This document shows positions 7,936-58,429 of a stretch of DNA of 64,000 bases, one piece after another. The stretch spans positions 636,303-700,302 of the forward strand of contig NC_087380.1 of assembly GCF_963675165.1 (NCBI RefSeq). Reading direction: 5' to 3'. Both the position numbers and the translations under genes were made by a program. The stretch's first letter is position 1. The number at the start of each line of letters is the position of its first letter. The notes under the pieces were generated by a model. That model ran no database searches. It was not told where the DNA came from and worked only from the letters and a program-made list of their open reading frames with translations. The stretch comes from Halichondria panicea. Taxonomy: Eukaryota > Porifera > Demospongiae > Suberitida > Halichondriidae.

Positions 7936-7969
<34 letters not shown>

Positions 7970-20966: not shown

Positions 20967-21373
20967 TCTCTAAAAGTTTAGCTAGCTAGCTAGTGTTGAT
21001 CAATCAGTGACAGAGTGGGCGTCAACCATTAATGGAATTTCACCACGATCACACCAATCCTTGCCTCAGTTTAGCCATAGATCTACGGTTTAGCTTAGAA
21101 AAACACTTAATTAATTAAAGTCTTGTATTTTATGTGCACATGTCAATTGAAGTGAAAGATATAATCTTAATTTAAATGACATCATAAGCCATGCAAAATT
21201 AATGACTGAGGAGGATTGCACCATGTGTACCCGGTACCTCAGAGTACCCCTAGTAATTTATTATTTTGATGATTTTTGCCTTCAGCAAATTTCAGTTGCT
21301 GTTTGTGAACAATAAAACAACTGCTAAAACAGTGACACATACATTGACAAACTAGACTGTGTTGTTATAGTGT

Positions 21374-22963: not shown

Positions 22964-23601
22964 CTGTAAGGAAACCATAATTATAGGAACTTAAATTGAA
23001 GATAATAGCTAACCAATGCATGTTAACATACAGTCATGCAGTACAATACTATACCATCCCGAATCAGTACAACCAGCATTTTATTGATCACATTGTGAAG
23101 TGCACAAACTCATTAAAAAATATGCTACAATGTCAAATGTCTATGTTCACTGGTATATAGTGGTTGATATGGGAACAGCAGGACAGGTATTCGCACAGTG
23201 GCTCTGCATGTATGGGGAATGGGAATGGGAACAATATGTCTATAAAATGCTCTCACCTGTTTCTGGTGTGAGGAATCCGTGCCGTAGCATAAACTAGAGA
23301 CACACAAGAGCACTGTTGGGTTTGAAGTGGCCATTGAATAGCTATATACATGCATAGCCACAACAATAGCCACATTGACAATCAAGGACACCAGCAAAAA
23401 TATACCTTTCATATGACAAGTTTTGTTAGCGCCATAGTTTATTTTCCAGCCATGCAAATTCTTATATGAACATTCATCAAAGCTATATAACAGGAAATGA
23501 ATGATCTTAGATCTACAATACATTAATTTTAACAACTTACTAAATTACATGAAACAACAGTGACATATACATTGACAAACTAGACTGTGTTTTCATAGTG
23601 T
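22964..23601. other. Spacer between D and E with conserved 3' block
   Basis: From about 23060 it matches the conserved receptor 3' flank, with AATAAA for receptor E (tttatt at 23438-23443). Nothing else is supported. Confidence 0.5.
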
Positions 23602-29892: not shown

Positions 29893-30012
29893 TTACAGAA
29901 AGTTTGCATAAGTATCGAAGGAGTCCAAGTAGACCAACAAGGCCTCGAAAACATCCTTGTAGTTGTCCTGTGAGGGGGAGTGGCACATTAATACACATAC
30001 ACTGCACACACA

Positions 30013-30068
<56 letters not shown>

Positions 30069-33000
30069 TGCACACACACACACACACGCACACACACAAT
30101 GACTGTGGTGTGTGGTAGGAAATACAAGTAATGCACAAGGCATGAATGGTGCAAGGAGGCTTGCTTGTGTGGGTAGCAGCTGAGAGGTCTGGCTTATATA
30201 AGTGGTGCAGGCTCTATATATAATAGCTGTAAGCAGCAGATGAACTCACGACTGAGGGTACTGCCCCTGGCTTGTGGACCCTGAGAGCCTTGACCACCTG
30301 GAACACATCCACCACTCCCTCTGTCTTGCAACGGTCAATGGTAGTAGCTATAGAGCAGTACATACCAGAGCGGGTCGCAGTGTCACTGGAAATAACACAA
30401 TACAATTAGAAACTTATTATAACAGATCCTCACCTGCAGTGGACCACAATCGCCTTGTTTCCAGTCCTCCTTTGAACCTTTATAACCTCCTCATTCACGT
30501 CAGTTACAATCTTGAGGTTTGCACATGCACCAGTCGACTTCCAATCGAGAATTTGGATTTGAATTATTTGCTGAGTTTGCTTAGTCTGGAGGAAAAAATA
30601 GGAACGATAAAGAAGCAATCGAAGTGATATATAAATAACAAACCTTCTTGTTAAGTACGCTCAGTTGCCTCATAACGAACCCAGTGTTGGTTTCCTCACC
30701 CAAGTTATCGATGGTGAACTCACCGAAGGAGGTGACATTGCCACTCTCTGGCCAGTACTGGGAGCATGCCTCCTACACACACACACACACGCACTCAACA
30801 GGGAGGACCTCTAATGGAGGCCATCTCTTACCTTCCCATTCTCACTGAGTGGAGTCAACATCACAACAGCCGCACACTTCCTGTCATAGATCACCTTCCA
30901 GAAGTTACGCACAGTTGAGTCCAGTGGATTCTGGGCAATGATGTATGCCTTCTGGTGCTTGTAGCCCTGGAGGGAGGGAGGGAGGGGGAACACTGAACAA
31001 TGTGCTCCAAATGATAGTACGTGCTACAATAATTATGGTGTGCTTAGATTAGTGATGTGTTTCGGGTGAACATTTTCCATTTTTTGAAGTGAGTGTTTTT
31101 TTCTAAATCAAGTCTGTTTCCCGGAACTATCTTTCGTTGTTCATAACTTGGGTTGCAAACGTCCAATTAAAAAAATAATGCTGTGTGTTCAGTAGCTCTT
31201 TGAGTGCCTTGCGAACACACACTTACATTGACAAAGACGGCATTGATGTAGTCACGGCCAGGGTCCTCTCCTTTCAGGAACACACGGTGATTCTCAACTG
31301 TGGAGTTGGTAAAGGGGCGCTTACATATAATCAGGTAATGGTCGTTTAATCTAAAATCTAAAACCTTAGTAAATACTTACTTGGTAGGTACTGTATTCCC
31401 CTGTTCAGGTTCTTGTGTCTCAATGCACTACTGCAGTTGACCTCATTCGGATTTGGAGATACTTGTTCCAGAATTTGGAACTGGTATTGGAAATCTGAGA
31501 CGGTTTTTCCCGGGGCCACTGATGACATCTTCTGTATCTGTCTGCGCAGATCTCCAGCACTGATCTGAGTGTCTCCACACGTCACTGACTCCAGGATAGC
31601 ATCGTGGATGAACACATATTGGTCCTATAGGAAGAGGGGCAATGAGCATGCTCAGTAGAATCAATTCAAAATGGCAGTGTCTGAGCCATTTCACTGTTAA
31701 TGTCACGTCATTAGACACTACCGGTAGTAGATAAGATCTACATGGGAAGTACATGGGAAAAGTGCCTCAGAGCAGGTATACTAAGGGACTTAGTATACCT
31801 GCAAATTTACTTAGTATACCTAGTATTCCGTTGTTAAGTAATTGTATTGTAGTCAAGCAGTTTGCTAACTATTATTTAGATGGTAGTGCTAATAGTTGGG
31901 TCGAAAACAGCAAAAAGCCCCGGCCCCTCTGGATCTCAGATAGAGTTATTTTGACTTTATATATCTGTTGCCCATATCATTTGTGTGACAAATGTGAACT
32001 GAATTGAACATTATATGAAAAAGTATAAAAACAGCAATTTAAACTACAAACTTTTGTCATTCTTCCCCTGATCAGTTTCTTCCGTGAGATAATCTAGAGA
32101 ACTGCAGCTCCACAGCACAAACTAGACACATATTACTATCCTCTGTTGTCTTGGATACGTCCCTAACTAATCGCTTTCCCTCAAAGTTAAGTCAAATTTG
32201 CTAGGGTGGAAGCTTTTTATTTTTTTTTCATTATTTTCTTACCGAGTATGCTCAAACATAGCTAATTGCCCACACACCTCTTACCGTAGTGTTTTGTACT
32301 GTCGATTCTTACCTCTCCAGTTCCGGAGATAGTCTAGTCGATAAGCTGCTTTAGGTTAATATGATGACTGCTCTTATTCTGAGCTGCTTATGCCTTATTA
32401 TAGATCTAATAATCACTGCATGCATATAATCATACGTGAACTAGATTTACTACTAGTACAAAAACTTCATGGTTGACAGATGCACAAAAAAAAACTGGAA
32501 CAGTGTCAGCTAATGCAGCTGAAACAAGTTGTTGTTCTTATAATGGTGGCAATGCATAGACTACAGATATTCGATCTATAGCTAACGTACCTACAAATTG
32601 GAGAAAAAGTGTACAAACAAGTGCAAATAACATTTTGTGAAAAAATGGGGGAGGTAGGGTTGGTATAATAATTTATTGGTTATTTTATGGTTGATATTGG
32701 CTTGGTTGGAGCACTACTTCTCCTTTTTAACTATCATTACTTTTGCGTTCAGGTTTTCTACTGGCGTTTCATGATGAAGAGGGTAAAAAAAACTAGCCTT
32801 ATTAATAATAATTATATCATAAATTATTACAACTATAGACCCTCATGCAGCTGTTGACATGAATATATAGAACCAGAGGAGTGTTCAGTTATACAATCAC
32901 TGCAATGGGTCTAACAAACTACTTTTAGTAGACTGGTAAAGGATCACATCAGCTGAAAATAATTATCGTGATTAAATGCCCATGGTAAAAGCTGTCTTTG

Positions 33001-36000
33001 TCAATAAACTCCATGTCAATAAACGCCCATCTCAAACAAAGCCAATATCAACCATAAAATAACCAACACCAAACCATATCTTGTTTACGTCCTTTTTGGT
33101 GTTTGAGCGGCTCAGCCAACCCTACTTCCCCCTCCCCCTTTTTTCACAAAATGTTTTTTGCGCTAGTTATATATATATACTGTGGGTACTTAAACTGGAC
33201 AGATTACACGTTGTTATCCTGTATTAGCCGGTATCTGGCTAATGGTTAGCTCATACGCAAGCAGTCGATACCACGCCCACTCTCAGAGGAAGTGGGCGTG
33301 AGGACGAGGCTAGGCACATACCCATTAAGCTTTATAATGGCCATTTTATTTTTTATTATAATGTGTACAAATGATACCCACTTTCCCTGACTACATGTAA
33401 TCCTCTACACATTCTTATCAGTTAGACTCAGAGGAGGTCCGACATGCGTGCACGAATCACTATAAGTGCCAGTATATTGGGCTGGACCTTATCACGTGAC
33501 CGCAATGACATCAATGGACTGAACTTGCAGTGATTTGTGCACGCATGTCGGACCTCCTCTGAGGCAGTGTGAATTACATGCAGTTACTTGTTTCTGTGTC
33601 TATAATAATAGTACGTGCTTACCTGGGTCTGGACCATTTCATTCTCTGATTGCGAGCTTTGACAATGGTGCCGGAAATATCGATCATATCCTCAGCTGCG
33701 ATCTGATCGAGGACATTATCAAGGGCAATGTAAGTGCCTGTGCGTCCCACACCAGCGCTGCAGTGGACCAGGAGGGGACCTCTGGACGGCTTGTGTTGGG
33801 ACTTGACCCGACGGTGGAACCCAAGAATGGGCGTGGCATAGTCAGGCACACCGTGATCAGGCCACGTCGTAAAGTGAAACTGAGTGGTCTTAAAAGGTTT
33901 CCCACTTTCCCCTTTCATCTGTGACAAAGACAAACATCGAAAGAAAATTAATGTGTGAAGTAAACAGTCAAAAAACACAATGTCAACGAATGTTAACAAA
34001 ATTACTGTTAAACATAACTGTTAACACAACATAACATATGTAGTATATATAGTGCTATTAGGTACTTACTGCAAGTAGTAGGTTTCTGACAGTGTAGTCA
34101 GCCAGGACCTGCTGGTCTGTGATGGTGACCATGAAGGGGCCATAGCTCACACTGCCACTGTCAGGCCAGTACTGTTGACACTTCATCTTGTTGTTCTCCA
34201 TGAGGTTGGTGAGCATGACTATTATGGGTGGTCTCTCCTGCCACATCATGCGCCAGAAGTCCACCAGGGTATTGGGTAGTGGTCCTTTGTGTGGGGAGGG
34301 GAGGAATAGACATATTGAAAACAAGCAATGAAGCATTGAACAATAGTTATGATTGTAAAGCAAGCACACAGCAAGTGTGCATAGTTACAGTCTTGTGTGC
34401 ATAGTTACTGTCCTGTGTGTACAGTATATAAACTGATACCTTGAGAAGCAATGAACTTCTTTGGCTTGTCAAAACCCTACAGTAGAGAGGGGGAAACCAT
34501 TGTAAACGTAAACCATGGTAAGGTAACAGCAACATAAACATGGTAATTGCACGCTATAGTAGGGTTGGGTCGAAAATAGGCCCCCCTCTGGATCTCACCC
34601 AAGACAATTTTCACTATTTGGCTCCAGAGCCACCAATAGCTTAATTTGCATGTGAAATACCAGTGTGTGGGAGTTTATCCCCATTTTAATTTTCGCGTTA
34701 ACTGCTCTTCCCTCGAAAAACGCGAAATTTTGCACCTCATGAAAATTTCCCGCACGGTATGTTATAATTATTATTGTTGTTTGCAATTGTTGACAATAAA
34801 CCCACACAGTCATTATAGAAGAGAGCTTGATGGCTTGATGATGAATGATCTTCAAAGATAGAAGATATCAAGAGTAGACAAGAGTAAGAGTGTTGAACTG
34901 CTGTAGTAAACGTTCAGACGATTGTCATCCACACTGTTGCAGGCTGTGAGTCTTTTGTTAGCATAGCAGGCTACGGGGTAGCTATCAGAATGCTATCTGC
35001 ATGGTATCTGGCTAATGGTTAGCTCATAAGCAGTCGATCCCAGGCCCACTCACTCCAGAGGAAGTGCGGCCTGGGATCGAGGCTAGTTTTTAGATAGCTA
35101 GTGCAACTATTCAGTCGCACACTGTTCTATTAAACTTAGCTAGCTCGCATGCAGCTCATGCATGTTCTAATTATTTCGGACATCTTACGTGCGCTATAAA
35201 GATTCGTTCCAATTATACCCGGACAATTTCCAAAATAATAAATTTTTGCTGTCTGATAAATTATAAGATATACGGTACATTGTTATTCATGGAAGAGACA
35301 GGCAGCCCTATAATCATTAACTATAATTATTTCCAAACATCCTAAATTCCTGCCCCTTTAGTCATAACACACACACACAGACCCACACACTCACGTCTAC
35401 ATAGCAGGCATTGATGTAGTCACTCTGACAGTCCTCTTGTCCAGGGATGGAGTCTAGGATAATGAGGTTGTCATCATCTGCAGAACAAAAGGGCAAAGAT
35501 TGTCAGTCGCACACCCTCCCAATCTTGCGAAAAGCTTAATTTAGTTTATTTACGATGGTTGGAATCCAGCCTTCACTGCTAGCAGATGATTTTCAGCGGC
35601 TATCCAACTAGTTTATGGAATCCTACGTACATGTGTCTAGGTTATCTTACATAGTCAATCACAGTGTCTTGATTGGGCATCAAAAATTAAATGCAAAAGG
35701 CTCTTCAGTATTTAATAGCTAGGGCTATAGTAAACCAAAAACAAAAACAAAAGAGCAGACAACACAAAACCATACAGGAAATACCGAATAGAAAAAGTAA
35801 GCAGATGCCCGACCTTAAGAGTCGATAATGATGGGTGGGTTAAAAAAGAGTATTTAACGGTGCACCAACCCTCCCCATTCATCTGTTGCATTCAGAGACA
35901 CATTCAACTAGTACACTGCATGAATATAAGCTACTCACATGCATTGGGGCATAGATTGAGTAGTTAACAGGGATTGGAAACGAGATCACGTGCGACAATG

Positions 36001-37653
36001 ACTCCAACGTTGCCTCTTGAAACCATCCGTGTTACGGTTCAGAGTGCAATAGGCAGTGGGCGTTAACCTCCAGCAGCAACTAAAACCATGCTAAAACTCC
36101 TCTTCTCCAGCTTCTAAAGTTAGGCTGAGTACAACCCAGCCTATAAATCTCTAGTGTTCATCATTTGGAACCACATTAGTTGTGAATTTGTCCAAGTTTG
36201 AGTTTCAAGACGACCCTACAACACTTTTATGAGTTTTTATATGCTTTTTCTCCCTAGAACCAGAGTTTAAATAATCTTTAACCTAGAAAAAGTATATAGT
36301 GTTTCAAAGTATTCCATTAATGATTGTAATGAGCCACAATGGTGTTGATTGAAAAACATCTGTTGCTGATTTCAAGTATCAACTACGCTAATTAATATAT
36401 GTGTTTATTTGTACCTCTATGCAGAGGTGAAGAGGTTATAATTTCACAATTTTTAGTTATAGGCCAAGCATAGGAATAGGTTCATCGTAATGTCTTATTT
36501 CTATGACCTGAATGCATTCTTGTGAGAAGTTACACCTTGCTCAATTTAGTAGGTAAACGTTTAACATGTTGACCGTTTGTGTATGCAGATATGCCTTGAA
36601 GACCCAAATTCCAACATCATCAGGCAAATACAAGAAAGAAATAACTTCAGAAAGATTATGGGATCCCTATATAAGTTAAAAAGTCATAAAAGAACAAGAA
36701 AGTTTTTTTCGTAGTTTTTTTGTTTTTGTAACTTTTCCATACAAGCTTCATTTCAGTTTATATTTCACAAAGATGTCATAAATATCACAATAATAATGGC
36801 CAATAGACAGTTGTTATTTCCAAATGGCCAACAGGCATAATAATATATAATTTTGTCTTTATAGAGCCTATAGTGTCTTAGGTGAGATCCAGAGGAGAGT
36901 TTTGCTCAATCTGGCTGATGCTACAAGCTCTCCCCTACAGCATGTATGCAGGAACGATCACATTTGCTGCTCATCAGCCCTGTCTTCTGTCTTTTTGCTA
37001 CTCATAGCCAGCCACCTTTGGTATAGCCTCGATTCAAGCCGGGAGGCCTGGTTTTTCGAGGCCGTAACACGGATGGTTTCATCCGGTTCTATTGCGTTTC
37101 CAATCCCTCTCCCTCCTTAATCTATGATTGGGGTCATGCTGACTGCAAGCTACTCACATGCATTGGGGTCATGCTGACTGCAAGCTACTCACATGCATTG
37201 GGGCCATGCTAACTGCAAGCTATTCACATCGAGGTCATGCTGGCATAAATTATAGGACTTATCTTGGACTTGATATTAATGTATCACTGTATGCTTGGCT
37301 GTACTAGTAGACATGTTGTGGCTCCAACTAACTGGGAGGCCTAATCATACAGCTCAGTACAAAACTGTACTGTCTGGGCCAGTGTGTGGTTAGTAGCTGA
37401 TAAATGGGTTGGTCTATGTGGTTGGACTTCTATGGAAATGCAAAACAAAAAAGATTAATCTCTTAGAGTTAGCTCCAGGCTTTAAATACTAGTAGATACC
37501 AGTGTGCGGTGTTGTACCACATGAAGCCACAATGAGGAACAAAGTACTGATTCTACCTCAGGAACTTACACACAAGAATGTTTCCAAATCTGTTTTCATC
37601 TTTGTGCTGTTTGGCAATTGCTGTTGAGTGTTCACCTTCCTTGCCACCAAGAC

Positions 37654-37734
<81 letters not shown>

Positions 37735-39263
37735 GGAGTGAACAATATATAACAAGGCCAGTCTGTTGGTGAGGTAATAAGCACAATCACTGTACATGTA
37801 TTAAACCCACCGAATAGTTACTGGCAAACTTCTTATTGCCATTAGCATGCTGCTCAGTGACATATGCTCCAAACCCATCCACTGGTATAAGAGTGAGGTC
37901 CACCTCATCTGTCACCTCTGCTTCCCCTCCCTCTGGTACCACTATCAACTGGAGCTCTTTCTCAGCTGTGCCAGAGGGTCCACTGGCCACCAGCTTATAG
38001 ACACCTGCACACACAAGGAAATGGTTACCATATCACAAGTGGTGTGTCTAACCCACACACACACACACACACTCTGAATATTGATATATGATATTATGAT
38101 AGTTGACATTTTGAGACCAATGAAACACGTGTTTGAAGTGTATTTTCAATATGAAACTTTACAATAGAGAGTTGTACACATTCCCAGCTGTAGTCACTTT
38201 ACACTAACAAGACCTTGTACATGTGTGTAACCTGTACTCACCAGCATGTTTCATTTCCACACTAGGGAAGGATAATTCACCGTCCTGGTCCAGTTCTGTG
38301 GCATAGTCTGCAGTCACCTTCCTACCATCGTGGTACCAGGTGAGACTGGGTGGAGGGTGACCTCCCACCTTGGGCTTAATGACTACCTCCTCCCCTTCAT
38401 TACCTCTGCTCTCACTGGGGAAGCCAGTGATAGTAGGCTCTACACATATTAACACACAGGTTTTAAGTGGTGAAATTCATGACACTAATCAACAGCACTG
38501 ACCTTGATCTTTTGATATGGTGGCCACCCCGTCAGTATCGCTGTGTTTGGTGTATACAGTAGAGAAACCAGAGTTTTTAGCAGCAGGCTCATACTGCTTC
38601 TTCCGTGAGCGTCTGTAGAAATAATAACAGTTGTGTTGTCATGCTTCAGTGTCTATATAAGCTATTGTGGTGCTGGATACACAGTGTAGTGGTTGTTGGA
38701 GGCTAGCTACATCCACAATGAATGTACACACACACACTGCACTACATGGCTTACCTCAGGAACAGTACTAGGAATATGATGAGCAGGATCACCAGAATCA
38801 CCACTACTATAGCACCGACTGCCCCACCAATAGCAGCAACAGAAACAGAGGCTAGGGGAATACAAATGGTTACAGGTTCTTGTATTGTTTTCGAGCTACC
38901 TTGAGGTTCAGGCAGGAATAGTTGTGCACAGAACGTCTCCACGGTAACTCCATCGTCCACTGGCACTCGGCAGCAATATTCACCAGTTGCAGTGGTGGTG
39001 TTTCTGATGAGGTTGAGGCGTATGAACCCGACACCAGTGTCAGTGTAGAAGTCAGAGTCTCCACGAGTTGAGGAGACAACAGTGCCATTGGGATTAAGCC
39101 ACGCGGCGTTAGAGGTCTCGTTACAGCATTGTTGGTAGTCAGTCCTGCACACCAGTCCTCTCCCCCCTTCTCCAATGGTGTCAAGCTGCACTCGAGAACT
39201 AACCTCAGCTACCAATGTGGACGCTCCAAACTGAAGGAACACTCCTGCAATAAAAGATGGCAT
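29893..39263 (-). CDS. LAR-type receptor tyrosine phosphatase with intracellular I-set domain
   Basis: Removes phosphate from Tyr of membrane-proximal substrates. Exons: 38900-39263 (ATG 39261-39263, MPSFIAGVFLQFGASTLVA as possible signal peptide, then Ig with CRTDYQQCC and GEYCCRV), 38755-38851 (TM, IVVVILVILLIIFLVLFL), 38503-38612, 38242-38439 and 37811-38004 (I-set, WYHDGRK, no disulfide Cys), 37570-37654, 35395-35477, 34440-34476, 34070-34284, 33623-33918 (WPDHGVP and HCSAGVGRTG of D1), 31381-31624, 31227-31297, 30832-30966, 30644-30772, 30434-30585, 30250-30385 (HCSDTATRSG of D2), 29893-29967 (stop). D2 has LDWKSTG for WPD, so it is probably a pseudophosphatase. The summed length is exactly one base short of whole codons, matching a missing A in RMKMVQTQ near 33650 (the sequence reads RMKW). 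This is either a real frameshift or a homopolymer error. The start could instead lie upstream in the CCP block. Confidence 0.8.
29999..30099. repeat. CA / CACG microsatellite in the last phosphatase intron
   Basis: A run of cacg tetranucleotides flanked by ca dinucleotides. ORFs across it are low-complexity artefacts. Confidence 0.9.
31774..31800. repeat. Perfect 12-bp inverted repeat with 3-base loop
   Basis: aggtatactaag, loop gga, cttagtatacct. A further cttagtatacct copy follows at 31809-31820. It lies in the intron between D1 and the inter-domain linker of the phosphatase. Confidence 0.85.
32631..33153. repeat. Foldback element in phosphatase intron
   Basis: The left arm (cattttgtgaaaaaatgggg, then ggttattttatggttgatat) and the right arm (atatcaaccataaaataacc, then ttttttcacaaaatg) are inverted copies around a roughly 330-bp centre. 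The right arm carries about 40 extra bases. No coding capacity is visible. Confidence 0.65.
33205..33312. mobile_element. Terminal fragment of the 604-bp MULE-like family
   Basis: It is the reverse complement of the first part of 1658-2261 (ttgttatcctgtattagccg, ggtatctggctaatggttag) and ends at the terminus gaggcta. It is truncated on the left. Confidence 0.6.
33428..33562. mobile_element. Foldback MITE with tcagaggagg ends (135 bp)
   Basis: The ends tcagaggaggtccgacatgc and gcatgtcggacctcctctga are inverted copies, and the arms continue through gcacgaatcact. The terminal bases are the same as at 27265-27410. No clear target duplication is visible. Confidence 0.7.
34912..35085. mobile_element. 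MULE-like family fragment in phosphatase intron
   Basis: It is the reverse complement of part of 1658-2261 (ttcagacgattgtcatccac, gtatctggctaatggttagc) ending in ggcctgggatcgaggcta. It has an internal deletion relative to that copy. Confidence 0.65.
35970..37107. repeat. 1.1-kb segment with inverted ends inside a phosphatase intron
   Basis: gggattggaaacg (35970-35982) and its complement (37095-37107), and gaaaccatccgtgttacgg (36019-36037) and its complement (37062-37080), form nested inverted pairs. This suggests a non-autonomous DNA element or a foldback pair. A tagcctcgattc motif at 37024-37035 indicates a second insertion at the right end. No transposase is seen. Confidence 0.5.
37126..37231. 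repeat. Tandem repeat, about 35-bp unit
   Basis: Three copies of a unit containing ggggtcatgctgactgcaag and ctactcacatgcatt, the third diverged. Another copy of ctactcacatgcattggggc is at 35931-35950, left of the inverted-end segment. Confidence 0.75.
37662..37731. repeat. (GT)n microsatellite, about 70 bp
   Basis: Uninterrupted gt repeat in a phosphatase intron, 7 bp beyond the acceptor side of the exon 37570-37654. Poly-Thr-His ORFs across it are artefacts. Confidence 0.95.
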
Positions 39264-39298
39264 CAACACACATTAGTAACACATGTATGGGAACTGAC

Positions 39299-40965
39299 TC
39301 TGACAGAATGGCTCAGCCTCAGTCCAGTTACGGTCTGATCCACATGTTCTTACACTGCTCCTGATCACCATCAGCTCCATCATCATCCCACAAGAGTAAG
39401 TGGCAGTACTCCCCTCCCTACGTGGAGGAGAGGTTGATGAGTAAGCAATGACTCCATTAGTGATGCTGGGTAGGTCCTCACATGTTCCTGTAAAGATACC
39501 ATAATTATAGGAACTTTATAAGATCATAATTTATAGCTTACCAATGCATGTTAGTATTGATCCACTCCACATTCCTCCACTAGCACTGTTAGTACATGTC
39601 CTGGTAGCATCACCAGAGAGCACAAACGTGACGTTACAGGTATGGGTAGCCACTGTACCCACTGGAATAGGAGAGGTGTCCATAGTGTAAGTGATGTCAC
39701 CATTTGATAGAGTGAGAGCAGGACAGCTTGCTGTAAAGGAAGTCATGTACACTAAAGGTACAAGCAATAAAGGAAGATACCTTGACAGACAATGTCTCCT
39801 CCACTCCAGGTAGTGTCTGATTGACATGTTCTTGTTCTGGGACCAAAGATATCGTACCCAGTGTCACAGGTGTAGGTGGCCACTGTCCCCGCTGGTCTTG
39901 GGGAGAGTGTCGTATTAATTGTAGCTAATCACTCCATTAGCAGGTGAGGGAAGGTCGTCCTGACAAACAGCTGCATGTAAAATACAATATACATCTTTAA
40001 AAACTATTGACTCACGAGAGCATATTGGAGGTGTGCCCCAGGATCCACTGACCATACAAGTCAGAATGGAGTCTCCTGATAGAGTGAAGCTCCCAGTACA
40101 CATGTAGGTGGCAGTCTCTCCAAATGTAGTTGCAGAAAATTGGGGCATTCCATTTTGGATCGTGGGAGGATTGCCACAGTCCACAACTGCAAATGAGAAT
40201 CATCATATCAATACTTTAGAGGGTCAGTAAAACTCACTTTGACAAGTGATAACACCTCCACTCCATGCTCTGTCCGACTGACACACCCGATCAGGTCCAC
40301 TGGATGATCCATTGTTCAATTAAAGAAATGAGTTCCACAGCAGATACACTCGCTGTTCCAGTCAGCACGGCTCGGTAGGTCACATGACTAGGGGAGTCAT
40401 CGAAACAAACAATGAAGGGATTCAAAATGAAGGAAGAGTTCAATCCACAGGCACACTGGCTTTCAATGCCTTGTGTCAGACTATTGGTGATGTCATCTGT
40501 TTTCATATCAGCGTCTTGTTCAGTGTACACTCTGCAGTTTGTTAGTCCCACCAGACCAAGTTGAATGTGCAGGCCTGTGGAATGTGGAATGGTTGGCATA
40601 AGCAAATAACAGACTGATGCTAATAGAGCTGTACAAACAATGTAGCCTGGGTACATGTACATTCATGTGAAATTGATCACATAACAACTTACTCCTGAAC
40701 TCAATGGTGTAGTGAGCAGCTACAGTGTGCCCCCCCTCAAGCTGACTGGATGTGAGGATGACCTGACAGCTGTACTGACCAGCGTCTGACAAGTAGAGAG
40801 TGTCAAAGTTGAGGGTTGCTGTGCTAGTCGTGAGTGACCCTCCCTCCCTCGTCCACTGGTAGGAGAGGGTGGGTTGTAGAGAGGCCCCTCCACTCAGGGA
40901 ACAAGTGAGGGAGAAACTCTAACCAGCCATTGGACCACCACTGGGGCTGATCACCACTTGTATGG
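39299..40965 (-). pseudogene. CCP/Ig block fused to a receptor piece, upstream of the phosphatase
   Basis: Exons in coding order: Ig 40693-40965, fused exon 40238-40574 (first half of a receptor membrane-proximal exon joined near 40305 to the end of a CCP exon), CCPs 40016-40186, 39781-39970, 39542-39730, 39299-39487. The CCP order matches receptor G just before its CRTDHQQCC Ig domain, so these CCPs may once have been part of the phosphatase ectodomain. The CCP at 39781-39970 has a 4-bp insertion (cgtattaattg) giving ISYN-stop, and no signal-peptide exon precedes the block. As it stands it cannot feed an open frame into the phosphatase. Confidence 0.65.
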
Positions 40966-41869
40966 CTGGATGAAAGAGAGTGGGTGTAAACAAAACAATT
41001 TTTGACAGTAGACCTATAAATTATATTGCTCAACAGAATACGAATATTTTTCACTATGACAGAATAAACAAAGCTGCTAGATCTACAATAACAGCAATTA
41101 ACTTCGTGATTTTAGCAAGTCACCACAGGGAGAATCGAGATACACAACAAAATGGTTGCAGTTTCTTGTACTGTTTTTGCAATACCTATATGGGTAGGTC
41201 CTCACATGTTCCTGTAAGGAAATCATAATTATAGTTGAAGATAATATAGCTTACCAATGCATGTTAACATACAGTCATGCAGTACAATACTATACCATCC
41301 TGAATTCAGTACAACCAGCAATTTATTTATTGTTTTGATCACATTGTGAAGTGCACAAACTCATTAAAAGTATGCTTTAATGTCAAATGTCTATGTTCAC
41401 TGGTATAGTGGTTGATATGGGAACAGCAGGACAGGTGTTCGTACAGTGGCTCTGCATGTATAGGAATGGGAACAATCACTCGGACTATCTATAAAATGCT
41501 CTCACCTGTTTCTGGTGTGAGGAATCCGTGCCGTAGCATAAACTAGAGACACACAAGAGCACTGTTGGGTTTGAAGTGGCCATTGAATAGCTATACATGC
41601 ATAGCCACAGCAATAGCCACATTGACAATCAAGGACACCAGCAAGGATACCTTAAAAATATACCTTTCATATTATATATACAGTGTATGACATGTTTTGT
41701 TAGTGCCATAGTTTATTTTTCAGCCATGCAAATTCTTATATGAACATTGATCAAAGCAAATGAATGATTTTTGCGTATATAGATCTCGATCTACTAACAA
41801 CTTGCTAAAATAACAGTGACACGTAGTGATACATTGACAAACTAGACTACATGTGTTATTACATAGTGT
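40966..41869. other. Spacer upstream of the fused block, with F 3' flank
   Basis: It contains an intron-like remnant matching receptor B/D DNA, a short CCP remnant near 41197-41214 (taggtcctcacatgttc), and from about 41310 the conserved receptor 3' block with AATAAA for receptor F (tttatt at 41712-41717). Confidence 0.5.
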
Positions 41870-44800
41870 CTACTTGTTCTCTGTGTTGCAGTCAGTGGAT
41901 GCATAAGCTGCACAGGCTGAGAGCGGGTAGTTTGCAGGAGGAGGGGGGCGTGGCTGGTCCACCACCTCATAGGTAGCCTCCTCTTGTAGTTTGCTCAACC
42001 CCTCGTAATCAGGGGAGGGGAGATGACTCATCACCACTGGGGGTAGTCTGCACGAAATAGAATAATAAATTACATTAACTCACATGTACATAATTATAGT
42101 ATAAGGACAGAAGCACTCTATACAACCACACTGGTATGTACAGCTACTTCATTCACAGACCATGCACACTAACACTCACTGTGTTGGTTGGCTGCCTGTC
42201 CTCTCATCACTCATGTCCTTGGATCCAGACCTCCGTTGCCTTAGTAACAACAGCACCACTATTACAATCAGTACTAGCACAGCAATGGCCAAGACTCCAG
42301 CAACCACCCAACCAGCCACTGCACTAACATTGACCACTACACTCTCTGTGGGTGTGGTAGTAGCAGTTGTCCGATTAGTGATGTCCTCAGGGCACTCTGG
42401 ACTATTTCTGTCAATGATCACCACAGGGCAAGTGTTAGTTACACTGAGGCCTGCTCTCTGCACCACAACGATTGGATCATTCTCAACCCACTGTTCCATT
42501 AGCCTAGCCAGTTGTATGGTGGATACACTCTCTGTTCCAGTCAGCACGGCTCGGTAGGTCACATGACTAGGGGAGGCATCGAAACAAACCATGAATGAAT
42601 TCAAAATGAGGAAAGAGTTGAATCCACAGGCACACTGGCTTTCAATGCCTTGTGTCAGACTATTGGTGATGTCATCTGTTTTCATATCAGCGTCTTGTTC
42701 AGTGTACACTCTGCAGTTTGTTATTCCCTCCAGACCAAGTTGAATGTGCAGGCCTACATGTGGAATGTAAAGTGGTTGGTATAAGCAAAAAGAAGCCTGA
42801 TGCCAATAAAGCTATATATACATCATTGGGAGATTCATAGTATACATAAGAATTACAACAACTAGTGTGTTTACATTGTTCGTGTGAAATTGAATCAACA
42901 GCTACAAAAACAAACATAACACTTACTAATGAACTCAATGGTGTAGTGAGCAGTTACAGTGTGTTCCCCCTCAAGCTGACTGGAGGTGAGGATGACCTGA
43001 CAGCTGTACTGACCAGCGTCTGACAAGTAGAGAGTGTCAAAGTTGAGGGTTGCTGTGCTGGTCATGAGTGACCCTCCCTCCCTCGTCCACTGGTAGGAGA
43101 GGGTGGGTTGTAGAGAGGCTCCTCCACTCAGGGAACAAGTGAGGGAGAAACTCTGACCAGCCATTGGAACACCACTGGGGCCGATCACCACTTGTATGGC
43201 TGGATGGAAGAGAGTGGGTGTTTTGCTATATAAGTGATCACAGCTAGGAATTCTGTGAACATTACAATGTAATAAGAATGCAGTTTCAGTTTAGTACCTG
43301 AGTAAACATCTACTGACAACAGGTGGCTACAATAACAAAAATGAATTAATTACTTGATACTGCAAATAACTTGCACGTTCACATGTGGGAGCATTTGGAG
43401 TCCACTGTCTATCATATTATTTTGCGTATGCTATCAGGAGTACTTTCATGCACTCCTGGTGATATGAATATAATTATAACGGGCAATTTAGTGGATCAAT
43501 CATGCCATATACAATCCCCCTCCATTATTAGAATAGTTTGAGAATGAGCCAAATCAGCAGAAAATTCACAATTTATGACTGTATTCGTTGTGTTCGTTAG
43601 GTGCATGTGATATTGGGTATAATGTTCGCAGTAGATGCGAAAAACCACGAACAATTATACCCTAGAAAAAACAGAAAGTCAAGCACATGTTTGTGTGTGT
43701 GTCAGCTAGTCTTACAGTTGCACACTGGAGCTTGTCCAGACCACACTCCACTTGTTCCACTTGCTCCACAAGTTCTGCTCTGACTACCAACAATGTTGTA
43801 TCCAGTGTTACAGGTGTAGGTAGCAGTGAAGGTGGTTCCAGAGGATGTGTCCACTGCTCCATTGGTTGGATTATTTAAGCGACCGCATTCAACAGCTAAT
43901 AAACATACATGAGAAAATAAGTCAGCTGAGAGTAATGTAGGTTTTGTAAAACACTCACGATCACAGGTAGGTGCTGTTAGGTCCCAGTTTCCATTAGCTT
44001 GACAGGTTCTATCTGATGCTCCATTGAGATTGTATCCATCATCACAGGTGTAGGTGGCAGTGTTTATGAAGGTGGTTCCAGAGGATGTACTAACTTGTCC
44101 GTTAGTAACAGTGAGGGAACCACAGTCAACAGCTGTGGAATATGAACACAGTGGATACAGTGTACACAGTCAGTCATGCTACTCACGTTCACAGGTGGGG
44201 GCATCTGGAGTCCATATTTTGTTTGCCTCACAAGTTCGAGTGTCTGATCCAACAATGTTGTATCCAGTGATACAGGTGTAGGTAGCAGTCATCATGAAGG
44301 TGGTTCCAGAGGTTGTGTCCACTGTTCCATTGGAGGGGTCAGTGAGCGAACCACAGTCAACAGCTGTATAAAAAAGTAAACAATCAGAGCATGTGTTAGT
44401 TCAACTGACAATTGCAAACAGGCAGAGATGTACTCCATCCATTGACAGCCACACAATTCCTCGTACTAGCACCAGTCAGTTCATAGCCAGTGTTACAAGA
44501 GTAAGTGGCCACTGCTCCAACTGGTGGAGGGCCATCAGAAGGTGAGTAGGTCACCATTCCATTGGAGAGGGGCTCACGAGGACACAGAGCTGTGGGAACA
44601 TGGTATCCTCTATACACTTGACTACTACACGAGGCATACCAGTACAGGTGGGTGCAGAGAGGCTCCATGTTGCATTAGCCTGACAAGTCCTGGTCACAGC
44701 TCCAACCATAGTGTATCCAGTGTTACAGGTGTAGGTAGCAGTCATCATGAAGGTGGTTCCAGAGGATGTGTCCACTGCTCCATTGAAGGGGGCGTCCAGG

Positions 44801-47040
44801 GAACCACAGTTGACAGCTAAACGACAAAAATAAATTTGTATTTGATATTGATGGTCATACTCACGATTACACACAGGTTCTGACCCAGTCCAGTCTCTAT
44901 TAGCCTGACAAGTCCTGGTCATATCTCCAGTCAGAGTGTAGCCAGTGTCACAGGTGTAGGTAGCAGTGCCTTGGTAGGTGGTCCCTGTTGTAGTGACTCT
45001 TCCATTGATAGGATCATCTAATGATCCACAGCTACCTACTGTAAGGAACAACATTACACGTGTACAATGTGCCTATTAAACTTCTAACCTGTACAAGTTG
45101 GACTACCACCATCAGACCACCCACTGGCAGTACAGGTCCTTGGTATACCTCCACTGAATTCATACCCAGAGATACAGCTGTAGGTAACCGTGGAACCCAC
45201 AGCTCTGGGAATGGTGGGGTCGCTGTAGGTCACCACTCCATTGGCCGTTAGTTGGACGTTGGGGCAAATCACTGAATAGAAATAGCATTTAGTTATATAA
45301 CTCATAAAGTCGTCAGTTTGAGTACATACGTGTACAAGTGAGGGATGTTCCACTCCATGATCTGTTAGACTGACAGGTCCTAGTGCCTCCACCAGTAGAT
45401 ACTCTATACCCTCCATCACAGCTGTGTGTAGCAATGGTTCCCTCAAGGTGTGGTGAGGTGCTAGAGCCGTAGCTGATCACTCCATTGAACAGTGAAGGAA
45501 GGTCATCACAGAGAGCTGTGGGAAATAGTCTGATACAATATCTTCAGTGTTGTGTTGTGTCTTACCTCTACACACTGGTGCTGTACTCCAGCTCCCACTA
45601 GCAAGACAAGATATCGTGGCTGATCCTGACCTTTGGTACCCAGTGTTACAGGTGTAGGCGGTCGTCTCTCCGAATGTTGTACCAGTAGAAGTCCTGCCAC
45701 TATTGGTAACAGTGGGAGGGTTGCCACAGGAGACAGCTGAATGGGAGAGGAGGGAGGTGTCAGTCATAGTGAAACATTTAATCACATGCATACGTTCACA
45801 AACTGGTGCAGCTGGACTCCACACTCCATCACTTAGTGTAGTTGCTCCACAAGTTCTGCTCTCACTACCAACACGGACGTATCCAGTGTTACAGGTGTAG
45901 GTAGCAGTCATCATGAAGGTGGTTCCAGAAGATGCCTCTACTACTCCATTGGGAATAGTTAGTGGTCCACAGTCAACAGCTGTGGGGAGATGCTTGATCA
46001 CCATTACTTCCAACCCACCATTGCTAACTCACGTGGACAAGTTGGTGCCACTCCTGACCACTGACCAGTAGCTTGACACTGTCTAGTAGCACTACCAGTG
46101 AGGACGTAGCCAGTATCACAGCTGTATGCAGCAAATCTAAGGTAATCCCGACTAGGGGTGGACACACCTCCATTGGTAGGGGAGGTTAGGACAGGGCAGG
46201 TGACGACTGTGTTGGGGAAAATAAACACACACTAACTACTTACTAGTTCTGATGGTCTTACTTGTACAAATAACTGTAGGTGGTGATGGAGACCAGGTAC
46301 CAGCACTAGTATCACTCCCACCCCCACAAGTTATCTGCAGAGCTGTTCCACTGGTGATGGTTGGTGTGTACCCAGTGACACAGCTGTAGGTGGCCATGTT
46401 GTTGACTGGGTTGTATGAGATCCTTCCATTAGTGTCAGTGAGGGGACTCAGTGTGGGGCAGGGAGCTGTGGGGGGTGGGGGTTAGTATTGGACATAGACA
46501 ATATAGTCAGCACTCACTGAAGGTGACACACAGCCTCTCATTGGTGGTAGTCCTCACACAGCAGTGTTCTCCATCAGGACTGAAGTGTGTGGGACCACGA
46601 TACAGAGCAACGCCAACATTAGGAATATCTCTGATGAACACTTCGTCCTCAACTGCCAACACTCTACTTTCTCCAAATTGCAATGCACTCCCATCGGGGA
46701 ACAGCCACAATACACTATCAGTGTCTACGGTGTAGCAAATCCAGGGGCGTGGATTACCAGTAGCTCCTGATCCAACATCAGAGAATGAGATGATCTCTCC
46801 AGTGTCGTCAGTGCCAACGGGCTCATTGGATGCTGCCAGTCGAGCTGAGTAGTGCATGTGTGTTTATCCTAATACTAGTTCACCAACTCAAGAGACTGAC
46901 GACATGCAGGATCTCTAGAGTAATGTACAAGTAGCTTCAGAAACTACACACAATAACTCACTCAGTGTTTGTGCATGTACCCATCCAACAGACACCGTCA
47001 GTCCTAGTAGTAGGCTTAGAGCAAGTCTTGAGAAGGCCAT
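41870..47040 (-). CDS. Receptor F: 12-CCP receptor with distinct signal peptide
   Basis: Exons: 46962-47040 (MAFSRLALSLLLGLTVSVGW, then VHAQTL), 46518-46844 (N-terminal Ig-like), CCPs 46262-46465, 46033-46206, 45794-45979, 45566-45736, 45330-45515, 45089-45271, 44865-45038, 44640-44816, 44410-44589, 44187-44363, 43959-44132, 43716-43895, Ig 42927-43199, membrane-proximal plus TM 42180-42753, tail 41870-42047. The sum is 3597 bases (about 1198 aa) with no lesion found. A dead CCP 3' remnant lies in the intron at 43374-43414. The signal peptide is unlike the MFPSRLFLCC type of A, E and I. The tail reads SPDYEGL and NYPL where others have SHDYEGL and DYQL, so the tyrosines are kept while neighbouring residues drift. 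The membrane-proximal first half is type ii and the second half is a mixture. Confidence 0.85.
43616..43663. repeat. Small hairpin in a receptor F intron
   Basis: gggtataatgttcg and cgaacaattataccc are near-perfect inverted copies flanking about 20 bases. Confidence 0.6.
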
Positions 47041-47584
47041 ACCTAGCTAGCTAACAATTATAGCTGGCCTTTCCAAGCTAATAGCTTCTTTGCAATAATG
47101 GGCGTGGCTGGCAGGAGGACAGTGACTAGGCCTATTATAATTAGCGCTTTTTACTTTGGCAACCCTCACCTAAATTTTGTCAAAACAATAAAGTGGCAAT
47201 AAGGCCACCTCAATTAAGTCATTATTGCTGATGTCAGCTATTATTTGAGGTCAAAGTCCTTTTTTTGGCTGACATTGCATTATTTCACCATGTGCCATGT
47301 TGCAAGTTGCATTGTGCACCAAAAAGCCAGTGTGTAAAAAAATTAAACTATTTTTATGTAATTATTGTTCAGACTCCGTCCTTTTGTGTATTTTCGTCAG
47401 TTAAAAAAACAGGATATGACATCATCAAATAATGGGATAATGGGTAATGAAGACCTCCCTCCCTCATCGGGTCGAGCTAGTATTCTCATGAAACAAGTAT
47501 GCAACTAACAGTGGCCTAAAACTACAATACGACTACATGAAACAGTGACACATACATTGATTAACTAGACTGTTGTTATAGTGT
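47041..47584. other. Spacer between F start and G tail
   Basis: It should hold the F promoter, but I see no convincing TATA or initiator element. It also holds the G 3' flank, which lacks the conserved 3' block found behind most copies. No gene is supported. Confidence 0.4.
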
Positions 47585-50500
47585 CTACTTGTTCTCTGTG
47601 TTGCAGTCAGTGGATGCATAAGCTGCACAGGCTGAGAGCTGGTAGTCTGCAGGAGGAGGGGGGCGTGGCTGGTCCACCACCTCATAGGCAGCCTCCTCCT
47701 GTAGTTTGCTCAATCCCTCGTAATCATGGGAGGGGAGATGACTCATCACCACTGGGGGTAGTCTGAACGAAATAGAATAATAAATTACATTAACTCACAT
47801 GTACATAATTATAATTATTCTAGTATAAGGGCAAAAGCTCTCTATATACAACCACACTGGTATGTACAGCTACTTCATTCACAGACCATGCACACTAACA
47901 CTCACTGTGTTGGTTGGCTGCCTGTCTTCTCATCACTCATGTCCTTGGATCCATACCTCCGTAGCCTTAGTAACAACAGCACCACTATTACGATCAGTAC
48001 TAGCACAGCAATGGCCAAGACTCCAGCAACCACCCCACCAGCCACTGCACCAACATTGACCACTACACTCTCTGTGGGTGAGGTAGTAGCAGTTGTCCGA
48101 TTAGTAATATCCTCAGGGCACTCTGGACTGTCTCTGTCAGTGATCACCACAGGGCAAGTGTTTGTCAAACCAAGTCGGGTACTTTGTACGATGATGCTTG
48201 AAGTGTCGCTGATCCATCGTTCAATTAAAGAAATCAGTTCCACAGCAGATACACTCTCTGTTCCAGTCAGCACAGCTCTGTAGGTCACATGACTAGAAGA
48301 GCCATCGAAACAATTGATGAACTCGTCAGTGAGAAGGGAGGGGCTGAACCCACAAGCACACAATCCTTCAACACCTTGAGATAGTCTGGTAGTGATGTCA
48401 CTGGCTATGGCACTTCTTCCTGACTCAATGTACACCTCACAGTTTGTTATTCCATCCAGACGGAGTTGAATGTTGAGTGCTGGATGTAAAGGAATAATAA
48501 ACTGTTTGTACACCAAAAGAGATCGAATTGATGATCCAAATTGTTGCACTGAAGTTTTTATTTTCACTTGTTATGGTTTAAGAACAAATGTCAGGACCCC
48601 CCTCCCCCCCATGGCCACTTACTCCTGAATTCTCCAGTCAGGGAAAAAAGGGAGAGACTCTTACACACACTCAAAAGAACAAAAGGCAGATGCTATAATA
48701 CATGCAGTGGGAGTTTACTTGTACAAAGAATTCAAACAACATTGCCAGTTTATATATTCTCGGACCATGTAAAATAGAATCAAGATGCTTAGAAAAATAA
48801 CAACATAATGACACTGACATAGATAACAACTTACTCCTGAACTCAATGGTGTAGTGAGCAGCTACAGTGTGTTCCCCCTCAAGCTGACTGGAGGTGAGGA
48901 TGACCTGACAGCTGTACTGACCAGCGTCTGACAAGTATAGAGAGTGTCAAAGTTGAGGGTTGCTGTGCTGGTCATGAGTGACCCTCCCTCCCTCGTCCAC
49001 TGGTAGGAGAGGGTGGGTTGTAGAGAGGCCCCTCCACTCAGGGAACAAGTGAGGGAGAAACTCTGACCAGCCATTGAAACACCACTGGGGCTGATCACCA
49101 CTTGTATGGCTGGAAGGAAGAGAGTGCATGGGTGTATAAAGAAAAGAATATAATTATTATTAAGCTATGTCAACAATAACTTTCACTATATAATTATGAC
49201 AGCAAGAACAAATTCACTATATATAATATAGCAGGTGCTGTGATAAACAGCCAATAGCTTGCGTATTTATTGCAAAAGGGGAGAACAGGACTGGTGGTAA
49301 CAGGTTATACTGTTTCTGTAATACTGAAATATGCAGGCAGGAATAGTTGTGCACAGAACGTCTCCACGGTAACTCCATCGTCCACTGGAACTCGGCAGCA
49401 ATATTCACCAGTTGCAGTGGTGATGAGGTTGAGGCGTATGAACCCGACACCAGTGTCAGTGTAGAAGTCAGAGTCTCCACGTGTTGAAGGGACAACAGTG
49501 CCATTGGGAGTAAGCCACACAGCATTAGAGGTCTCGTTACAGCATTGTTGGTGATCAGTCCTGCACACCAGTCCTCTCCCCCCCTCTCCAATGGTGTCAA
49601 GCTGCACTCGAGAATTAGCCTCAGCTATTGTAAACCCTTGATGTTGAAGGAACACTCCTGCAATAAATAATGGCATCAACACACATTAGTATAACACATG
49701 TGTGGGAACTGACTCTGACAGAATGGCTCAGCCTCAGTCCAGTTACGGTCTGATCCACATGTTCTTACACTGCTCCCGATCACCATCAGCTCCATCATCA
49801 TCCCACAAGAGTATAAGTGGCAGTATTCTCATCAGTACGTGGAGGAGAGGACATGTCGTAGCATCACCAGAGAGCACAAACGTGTCACTACAGGTATGGG
49901 TATAGCCACAGTATACCCACTGGAATAAGAGAGGTGTCGCAGGACAGCTTGCTGTAAGAGAAGTCATGTACACTAAAGGGACAAGCAATAAAGGAAGATA
50001 CCTTGACAGACAATGTCTCCTCCACTCCAGGTAATGTCTGATTGACATGTTCTTGTTCTGGGACCAAAGATGTCGTACCCAGTGCCACAGGTGTAGGTGG
50101 CCACTGTCCCCGCTGGTCTTGGGGAGAACATCGTATCATAGCTAATCACTCCATTAGCAAGTGAGGGAAGATCCTGACAAACAGCTGTACAAGACAGATA
50201 AATTATAATATTTAATTAAAAACTATTGACTCACGAGAGCATATTGGAGGTGTGCCCCAGGATTTATCGGCCATACAAGTCAGAGTGGAGCTTCCTGATA
50301 GATCAGAGTGAAGCTCCCAGTACACGTGTAAGTGGCCGTCCCTCCAAATGTAGTTGCAGAAAATTGTCTCATTCCATTTGAGATCACCGGAGGATTGCCA
50401 CAGTCCACAACTGAAAATATAAATCATCATATCAATACTTTAAAGGACCAATACAACTCACTTTGACAAGTGATGACACTTCCACTCCATGCTCTGTCAG

Positions 50501-51375
50501 ACCGACACACCCGATCAGGTCCACTGGATGGTAGGTACCCAGTGACAGCACAGCTGTGTGTAGCCATGGCTCCCTGCAGTCTGGGGGTGCCGGGATGCTG
50601 GATTGTAGTTAATCATCACGTTGCCGGTTGGGGACAGGGAGGTTATACAGAAGACTGTAAAGAAATAGACACATGTATGTATGACAGTGACCCAAACAAC
50701 AGACCTGTACAATTAGGAGTGGTAGTAACATCACTCCATCCACTGGTAGTACACATCCTGACTGCTGTCCCACTGAGGTGATAGCCAGCTGTGCAACTGT
50801 AGGTAGCCGTGGAGGCTGTTGCTCGGGGGATAATGGAGTCACTGTATTGAATGACTCCATTTGTTGGATTAGGGAGGGTTGGGCAAATTGCTGTGTAAGA
50901 GAGAAAGACATAATATATTATACACAATGCTTATGAGTTGTGTGACAATCTCACATTCACAAGTTGGATCACTGCCACTCCACACTCCATTGGTTAGACA
51001 GCTCCGTAGTCATGGTAGCACTAGTGGTACCAACAATCCTGTACCCAGTGACACAGGTGTAGGTGGCCACAGTGCCAGGTGGTCTGAGGTTACTAGTTCC
51101 ACCATTGTAGGATAGGATATATCTGAATTAGCTCGATTACCGAGGTCCTCACAAGTCACTATACAGGGAATGAATGACATAATACAATAATAGGTACCAT
51201 AATTATATCTATACCTACTAGATCTAGATAACACCAGTTAAGTTAGCACAAGATTAAAGATCTAGAGCAAACCTACATCTATCATGATAGATCTATATCG
51301 ATACAACTCACTCAATAATTCCTGCATGCATATCAACTCACCCAAAGGCTGTCCATACACTATAGGGAAGCACTT
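47585..51375 (-). pseudogene. Receptor G: CCP receptor carrying a phosphatase-type Ig domain, decayed
   Basis: Exons in coding order: first-exon remnant 51342-51375 (start codon lost by fusion to a UHRF1 fragment), CCPs 50955-51158, 50705-50890, 50462-50654, 50235-50410, 50002-50184, fused CCP pair 49714-49951, Ig about 49335-49657 (CRTDHQQCC, GEYCCRV, closely matching the phosphatase ectodomain), Ig 48835-49109, membrane-proximal plus TM 47906-48479, tail 47585-47762. Lesions: a TA insertion near 48937 shifts the Ig frame, a 5-bp insertion near 50301 shifts a CCP, a deletion fuses two CCPs near 49851, and there are several more TA insertions. The membrane-proximal/TM and tail exons are open (subtype i-b). 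It shows that the phosphatase Ig domain also occurred on a Tyr-tail receptor. Confidence 0.75.

Positions 51376-58385: not shown

Positions 58386-58429
<44 letters not shown>

Follow-up and report, generated by a model that had tools for sequence, protein, structure and literature searches.

A candidate paired-receptor complex in the sponge Halichondria panicea: related ectodomains on tyrosine-tail receptors and receptor tyrosine phosphatases

Introduction

Vertebrate paired receptors are encoded by clustered genes with fast turnover, and their inhibitory members carry immunoreceptor tyrosine-based inhibitory motifs (ITIMs) that recruit SHP phosphatases. To our knowledge, most paired activating and inhibitory immunoreceptors have been described in vertebrates; tunicates and cnidarians have partial analogues, and the recognition receptors of sponges are largely unknown. 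Here we describe a 64,000-nucleotide stretch of the Halichondria panicea genome (the window; C4:636303–700302, where C4 is contig NC_087380.1 and other contigs are numbered likewise), in an assembly of 131 Mb and 39 contigs. The window holds an array of candidate receptors with tyrosine-motif tails together with a receptor tyrosine phosphatase, and both belong to a larger complex.

Vertebrate paired receptors are described as closely similar ectodomains joined to different cytoplasmic outputs (PMC3533184, PMC5112662). The FcoR proteins of the Botryllus fuhc locus combine a variable-type immunoglobulin (Ig) domain, sushi domains, a further Ig domain, a single transmembrane (TM) helix and tyrosine-motif tails, and are encoded in multigene clusters (PMC12065747). 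That source lists ITIM, hemITAM or core tyrosine motifs on FcoRs and SH2 domains encoded at many FcoR loci, and, in the passages covered, names CD45-like receptor phosphatases only among the expressed proteins of the pathway, without counting them as fester or FcoR proteins; it also reports ITIMs and immunoreceptor tyrosine-based activation motifs (ITAMs) on candidate allorecognition genes, and describes the candidate proteins as not conserved between sponges, cnidarians and ascidians (PMC12065747). Excerpts on Hydractinia describe Alr proteins as a 41-gene family with V-set and I-set Ig ectodomains (PMC11999971), and an R3-type receptor protein tyrosine phosphatase (RPTP) is described from Amphimedon (PMC5336234). 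Among the literature matches listed (titles and abstract beginnings, few subscription journals covered), none reported a sponge cluster that pairs phosphatases with tyrosine-tail receptors, and none an RPTP that bears an Ig domain on the cytosolic side.

Results

All array domain matches within the window lie on the minus strand and fall to nine tyrosine-tail receptors (U1–U6, G, U8 and U9), a receptor fragment and one phosphatase, RPTP-W (Table 1). The receptors are ordered as an N-terminal V-like Ig domain, a run of complement control protein (CCP, or sushi) domains, an Ig domain (Pfam Ig_3), an uncharacterised membrane-proximal domain encoded with the TM helix in one exon, and a tail exon. 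In the predicted models, exons through most of the ectodomains are phase 1. Models were built by an exon-chaining script guided by domain matches and by reading by eye; some exon boundaries are plainly mistaken, as where TM exons are clipped, and receptor models stand without placed signal-peptide exons. Genome-wide match counts, for which the best candidates were scored, are lower bounds.

The initial annotation of this DNA proposed that tyrosine-tail receptors and a receptor phosphatase share one pool of ectodomains. By sequence, this central proposal holds and reaches beyond the window: shared ectodomains stand on alternative cytoplasmic parts, with open frames in several members, and the sharing recurs in three modules and at several loci of one complex. 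The N-terminal V-like domain of U8 has at least 70 genome matches, which become 67 copies once three second pieces of split copies are left out. The next cytoplasmic part downstream by gene order is a YxxL-YxxV tail for 28 copies, a phosphatase I-set domain for 15 and a YEVP tail for 11. One split tail locus (1746782/1746932), counted once among the 47 tail loci and twice in this assignment, received no N-terminal copy. The N-terminal copy of a phosphatase, RPTP-E (C4:588139), is 90% identical to that of U8, 86% to U5 and 85% to U6. Its synonymous divergence (dS) from these receptors (0.044, 0.038 and 0.027, respectively) is about the same as or below that among the receptors themselves (0.043–0.054), which suggests recent exchange or conversion; the later exons of RPTP-E were placed by coordinates only, and a frameshifted N-terminal copy in locus L034 was left out of the comparison.

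The membrane-proximal V-like domain of another phosphatase, RPTP-D (C4:772386–772646), has 14 matches at 80% identity or more among the 150 matches listed, itself included. Eight are on phosphatases (RPTP-D included) and six stand beside a TM helix and a YxxL-YxxV-type tail, with the ranks interleaved: RPTP-D is 80–90% identical to the seven other phosphatases and 82–84% to the six receptors, whose two tail motifs are spaced by eight residues. The phosphatase-side copies lie 0.5–1.0 kb before an I-set exon, with protein tyrosine phosphatase (PTP) exons further on, and one of the eight has a TGA. Because dS is 0.24–0.25 between RPTP-D and the two receptors read, against 0.31 from receptor to receptor, these domains do not sort by cytoplasmic type in this comparison. 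CCP exons are shared as well. RPTP-B, a predicted open phosphatase gene 22 kb past the left edge of the window (C4:605.6–613.9k; 27 predicted exons, 12 CCPs), and U8 have three proximal CCP exons alike in the same order at 84, 93 and 89% DNA identity; the next four U8 exons match RPTP-B at 67–71%, a single RPTP-B exon being the partner of two, and the mean identity among CCP exons at large is 0.54–0.56.

Within the window, the V-like Ig domains of RPTP-W (38910–39194) and receptor G (49335–49610) are 92.6% identical in protein and are both preceded by CCP4-CCP5-CCP3-CCP6, bearing out the near-identity and the common CCP order that had first drawn attention to this DNA. DNA identity is 91% between 38909–39433 and 49334–49850, and 84% between 39591–40306 and 49848–50530, both far higher than the mean of 0.54–0.56 among CCP exons at large. 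This pair is not the best evidence, because G is a decaying chimera and the 5′ ectodomain of RPTP-W is damaged; the pair first singled out is in part a dead chimera, and G was rejected as a working gene. The initial annotation would have given up its proposal for a recent one-way copy into a dead gene without a functional relative. The decay of G goes part of the way there, but open-frame relatives of both kinds are predicted.

Two marks of paired receptors are thus found here: members that differ in their cytoplasmic parts have ectodomains that are closely alike, and the genes are clustered with rapid turnover. Clustering and turnover are visible in 43 of the 47 tail loci and 35 of the 37 close I-set loci lying on C4, in broken copies, and in a 4.8-kb duplicate of 99.3% identity (2701–7526, in damaged U1, against 52038–56852, in open U8), which by its identity level is very recent turnover.

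RPTP-W has tandem PTP domains, D1 and D2 (Pfam Y_phosphatase, E=1.2e-27 on the catalytic exon). Its exons encode the V-like Ig domain and TM helix (39208–38755), a basic cytoplasmic segment (38612–38503), the I-set domain (38439–38242, continuing in 38004–37811), a juxtamembrane segment (37654–37570), D1 (35477–33623) and D2 (31624–29893). The last exon was read by eye, and the script model also has two doubtful mini-exons at 32.3–32.4 kb. D2 reads HCSDTATRSG and has lost the WPD motif. Partial or broken domain matches (3 of 18) are all in the 5′ CCP exons, and 5′ of RPTP-W there is a breakpoint near 40305, where a receptor exon abuts the interior of a CCP.

Eighteen tandem phosphatases with predicted models of 1118–1535 residues occupy C4:330–485k. 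WPDHG is present in 18 of 18 models and HCSAGVGRTG in 17; a Pfam scan of one gave Sushi in five stretches, I-set (E=1.9e-11) and Y_phosphatase in two stretches (E=5.8e-136). At least 49 matches covering the PTP catalytic exon lie on C4, from 96 kb to 2.61 Mb. By hydropathy, 16 of the 18 array models have one TM helix, placed before the I-set domain; for model 390155 the DNA encodes the helix but the model clips it, and in model 467305 none was found. One TM helix and a PTP domain with an intact signature identify these predicted proteins as receptor tyrosine phosphatases, with an active-looking D1 and a degenerate D2. LAR (R2A) phosphatases have Ig and FN3 ectodomains, a TM helix and a D1-D2 layout. 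The 'LAR-type' label first given to RPTP-W holds for the D1-D2 layout, but the ectodomain consists of CCP and V-like Ig domains, and a Pfam scan of one complete relative gave Sushi without FN3, so the subtype was rejected.

Between the TM helix and D1, predicted on the cytosolic side, lies the I-set domain. Its region lacks cysteine in 19 of the 20 phosphatase models where it was located (17 from the array, plus RPTP-W, RPTP-B and RPTP-D), and the single cysteine (A_345134) falls immediately ahead of the domain, in a stretch that is itself doubtful. The array I-set has at least 39 genome matches, 37 of them at 73% identity or more (35 on C4, 2 on C1). Since one of the two distant matches (C3:2490121) sits about 1.2 kb from a PTP match, the I-set and PTP pairing may be older than the arrays.

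Nine window tails match the tail query (at 3.2, 14.1, 16.5, 21.4, 23.6, 41.9, 47.6, 52.5 and 61.0 kb). All eight tails read have YEGL or YEEL, a spacing of eight and then YEVV, with the preceding Asp and a Pro-rich stretch kept. The YEGL and YEVV motifs originally noticed recur as DYEGL-x8-YEVV in the seven window models read (U2, U3, U5, U6, G, U8 and U9). A third type of receptor, at C4:1001651–1002550, joins a V domain (58% identity) to a Ser/Thr/Pro/Glu-rich stalk, a TM helix and a tail with YSNK and VYEVP; this YEVP tail has at least 11 genome matches, nine at C4:961–1008k and two on C1.

The V-like domains gave 16 weak PDB profile matches (E 0.039–1.3), all to Ig-superfamily chains, with CD22 and TIM-4 on top; the receptor N-terminal domain was not in that alignment and gave no family in a single Pfam scan. 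For the membrane-proximal domain, SEA was a working label only: Pfam gave nothing above cut-off for it, and the PDB matches were not meaningful. Relatives of this domain with its TM helix, at 31–49% identity, occur at C5:5.25–7.28 Mb and mark further receptor families that share this proximal part.

Ratios of nonsynonymous to synonymous change (dN/dS) differ between parts. In the 18-gene array they are 0.17 and 0.19 for D1 exons and 0.13–0.36 for D2 exons, and 0.56 for the I-set and 0.62 for the juxtamembrane exon, both on very few changes. In window receptors they are 0.70 for the TM helix and 0.65 for the Ig domain (few changes each), 0.35 for the membrane-proximal domain, and 1.72 for the N-terminal domain (n=5; codon bootstrap P(dN<=dS)=0.002), or 2.11 without U3 (n=4; P=0.014); most single pairs of N-terminal domains are not significant. 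For the array estimates, each PTP, I-set or juxtamembrane exon was represented by 17 or 18 copies and the proximal V domain by 13, the others having no usable match. Each bootstrap value comes from 500 codon bootstraps, from which the near-duplicate U1 was dropped. The sets are small and of related copies, among which conversion can distort both rates. On these estimates, D1 is under purifying selection and the distal domain of the receptors changes faster.

Signalling genes, classed by gene order, lie elsewhere in the genome. SH2-SH2-kinase exons in order at C9:5255365–5259157 are a candidate Syk/Shark-class gene; SH2 and kinase genes of Src type lie at C2:7.249–7.256 Mb, and an SH2-SH2-PTP (SHP-type) gene at C3:8.4046–8.4063 Mb. 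On C4, SH2 domains (1812617 and 1872960) lie close to the 1.74–1.81 Mb receptor array, and a cluster of tyrosine-kinase-type matches (2520661–2756279) lies beside the 2.09–2.61 Mb phosphatase cluster. Tandem kinase-match arrays (PF07714) in long open frames occur at C10:1701723–1940221 and C15:4006901–4033741, and at C1:15.5–17.4 Mb kinase-like matches scoring about 130 bits form a large array, in open frames some 276–493 aa long.

Predicted exons are open in U3, U5, U6 and U8. The CCP7 matches of U3 and U6 are partial through divergence inside an open exon, not through breakage; U6 has 15 predicted open exons, one of which (45979–45566) probably spans a short intron. UHRF1-like exons lie inside the array at 27500–28962, with an SRA domain (Pfam E=1.5e-14) and an exon that is RING-like by eye. 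Copies of the RING-like exon near 13353–13580, 51777–51999 and 60187–60447 seem to have been carried along by receptor duplications. Silicatein-like exons at C2:659041–660310 (56–79% identity; Ser active-site reading DCGASYAFSAMGALEGA) indicate a siliceous demosponge and speak against a tunicate origin, which the resemblance to fester had brought into question.

Table 1. Features of the window (positions counted from its first letter)
Feature	Position	Strand	Remarks
Receptor U1	3205..10346	-	Frameshifted CCP exon, damaged CCP3 5′ end; 3′ half a close U8 copy, 99.3% over 4.8 kb
Receptor fragment U2	13600..16050	-	Membrane-proximal domain frameshifted; partial domain matches 2/5
Receptor U3	16510..20722	-	13 open exons
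Receptor fragment U4	21300..23100	-	Partial or broken domain matches 3/5
Receptor U5	23602..26491	-	9 open exons
Receptor tyrosine phosphatase RPTP-W	29893..39208	-	Exon chain with Pfam Y_phosphatase and Ig_3/I-set
RPTP-W D1 catalytic exon	33623..33918	-	WPDHG, HCSAGVGRTG
RPTP-W I-set Ig exon	38242..38439	-	After TM helix, without Cys; Pfam Ig_3 E=1.7e-11
RPTP-W membrane-proximal V-like Ig (QQCC) domain	38910..39227	-	92.6% identical to 49335–49610; 93% to RPTP-B
CCP exons 5′ of RPTP-W	39299..40289	-	CCP3 frameshifted at 39916/39918; block truncated at about 40305
Orphan receptor fragment	40306..40957	-	Ig and part of membrane-proximal domain, without TM; both matches partial or broken
Receptor U6	41870..46832	-	N-terminal V-like Ig, 12 CCP matches (11 by Pfam), Ig, membrane-proximal domain with TM, DYEGL-x8-YEVV tail
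U6 N-terminal V-like Ig exon	46518..46832	-	85% identical to RPTP-E N-terminal domain
Receptor G	47585..51158	-	Chimera in decay, with ectodomain of RPTP type and TM/tail of receptor type; partial or broken domain matches 9/15
Receptor U8	52542..59366	-	13 open exons; three proximal CCP exons 84–93% DNA identity to RPTP-B
Tyrosine tail exon of U8	52542..52719	-	DYEGLSRLQEEATYEVVDQPRPPPP; at least 51 genome matches, 47 loci
Receptor U9	60953..63937	-	Extends past window end; partial or broken domain matches 3/13

Discussion

We consider it fairly probable that these genes form a germline paired-receptor complex, in which activation through kinase-recruiting tails is opposed by a receptor that carries its own phosphatase. 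A modular, putatively ligand-binding ectodomain pool (N-terminal V-like Ig, variable CCP run, membrane-proximal Ig) is joined to three cytoplasmic outputs: (i) a D1-D2 phosphatase with a cysteine-free I-set domain, (ii) a DYxxL-x8-YxxV tail and (iii) a tail with YSNK and YEVP. A ligand engaging types (i) and (ii) on one cell would lead Src-type kinases to phosphorylate type (ii) tails, which could then be bound by SH2 proteins, with the Syk/Shark-class kinase as a candidate. The co-engaged type (i) receptor would strip these phosphates, so that the inhibitory arm would be a built-in phosphatase, not an ITIM-recruited SHP. Going further, we tentatively suggest, at somewhat less than an even chance, an independently built, germline-diverse sponge system in which a distal V-like pool stands over three outputs, sets kinase against built-in phosphatase without ITIM or SHP, and possibly serves fusion or symbiont discrimination.

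Several observations weigh against a paired-receptor reading, whose support is the DNA sequence of one assembly. Five of the nine window receptors are damaged (U1, U2, U4, G and U9), 13 of the 67 N-terminal copies are without an assigned cytoplasmic part, and two assignments are uncertain, one to a phosphatase across 9.6 kb and one to a tail across 11.1 kb. Of the six tails next to V domains like that of RPTP-D, three were scored with a stop within the match; in the two of the six that were read (locus L042), both motifs are present in both, and the stop in one is a slightly early end after both motifs. The window tails have a dN/dS of 0.74 (n=9, few changes), at which tail constraint is not demonstrated. 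Values for the array phosphatases (1.03 for the N-terminal V domain, neutral-looking, and 0.49 for the proximal V domain) rule out diversifying selection on all V domains, and none of the 18 V-like domains scanned matched a Pfam Ig family. The phosphotyrosine loop of the phosphatases reads NRF, where NRY is usual. Nor do the tails fit the ITAM or ITIM type in the strict sense. The ITAM consensus is YxxL/I-x6-8-YxxL/I, and the second motif ends in Val in all eight tails read; ITIMs have I, V, L or S at position -2 of YxxL/V/I, and these eight tails have H or P there before YEGL or YEEL and A before YEVV. Our best inference is that the complex works like a paired-receptor system, and we claim no membership of the ITAM/ITIM family.

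Opposed signalling is not the only way to account for the phosphatases. RPTPs can activate Src kinases, as CD45 does, and the Src-like genes on C2 would supply the substrate class; the phosphatases might act in this way, or in adhesion, and share ectodomains through exon shuffling in a tandem array with no opposed signalling. The phase 1-1 ectodomain exons favour shuffling, and domain matches placed no tyrosine-tail receptor in the 18-gene phosphatase array region, which fits this account and counts against ours. Sharing recurs, however, in different ectodomain modules and at several loci, and the highest dN/dS among the compared parts belongs to the receptor distal domain, not to the phosphatase. 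Neither point is decisive, and we regard this account as unlikely rather than negligible.

The tails, for their part, might be sorting signals. YEGL and YEVV both fit the YxxPhi consensus recognised by AP-2, and CCP-rich receptors are common in scavenging; the tail receptors would then internalise microbes or debris, and the phosphatases would be a separate family. Sorting leaves unexplained why the same ectodomains stand on phosphatases, and two tyrosine motifs at a fixed spacing, with the Asp and Pro-rich stretch, in every tail read speak against it too, which makes this account distinctly improbable. That the locus consists of ordinary birth-and-death relics with little function seems very improbable indeed: the damaged receptors and the broken 5′ part of RPTP-W are what it predicts, but the open predicted exons of U3, U5, U6, U8 and RPTP-B, the long models of all 18 array phosphatases and the low dN/dS of D1 are not.

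If the paired-receptor reading is true, kinase-versus-phosphatase receptor pairing either goes back almost to the root of the animals or evolved a second time by another solution, the receptor-fused phosphatase. The multi-megabase complex has the look of an immune-type system of paired on/off receptors in a lineage that branched off very early among animals, and it offers specific genes with which graft rejection or microbe sorting in sponges could be tested.

The likeness to KIR, LILR, SIRP and CEACAM1/3 is that members with unlike cytoplasmic parts have ectodomains closely resembling one another. In vertebrates, however, an ITIM recruits SHP, whereas the sponge tandem PTP is covalently part of the receptor, and opposed signalling is something that we infer here. 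Botryllus fester and FcoR proteins, in the excerpts available, resemble the sponge receptors in their V-type or V-like Ig, sushi and Ig domains, single TM helix, tyrosine-motif tails and clustering; they differ in being chordate, and those excerpts mention no phosphatase member. For Hydractinia Alr, compared by description only, the excerpts mention neither CCP domains nor a phosphatase member. The sponge phosphatases have the TM helix and conserved D1 signature of R2A (LAR) and R3 RPTPs and the D1-D2 layout of R2A, but differ in having CCP and V-like Ig domains where those have FN3, an extra cysteine-free I-set domain between TM helix and D1, and tens of tandem copies. Titin-type proteins likewise place an I-set Ig fold on the cytosolic side, as predicted here for a domain that Pfam recognises as I-set; unlike theirs, the sponge domain stands beside a receptor phosphatase domain rather than in a kinase or muscle protein.

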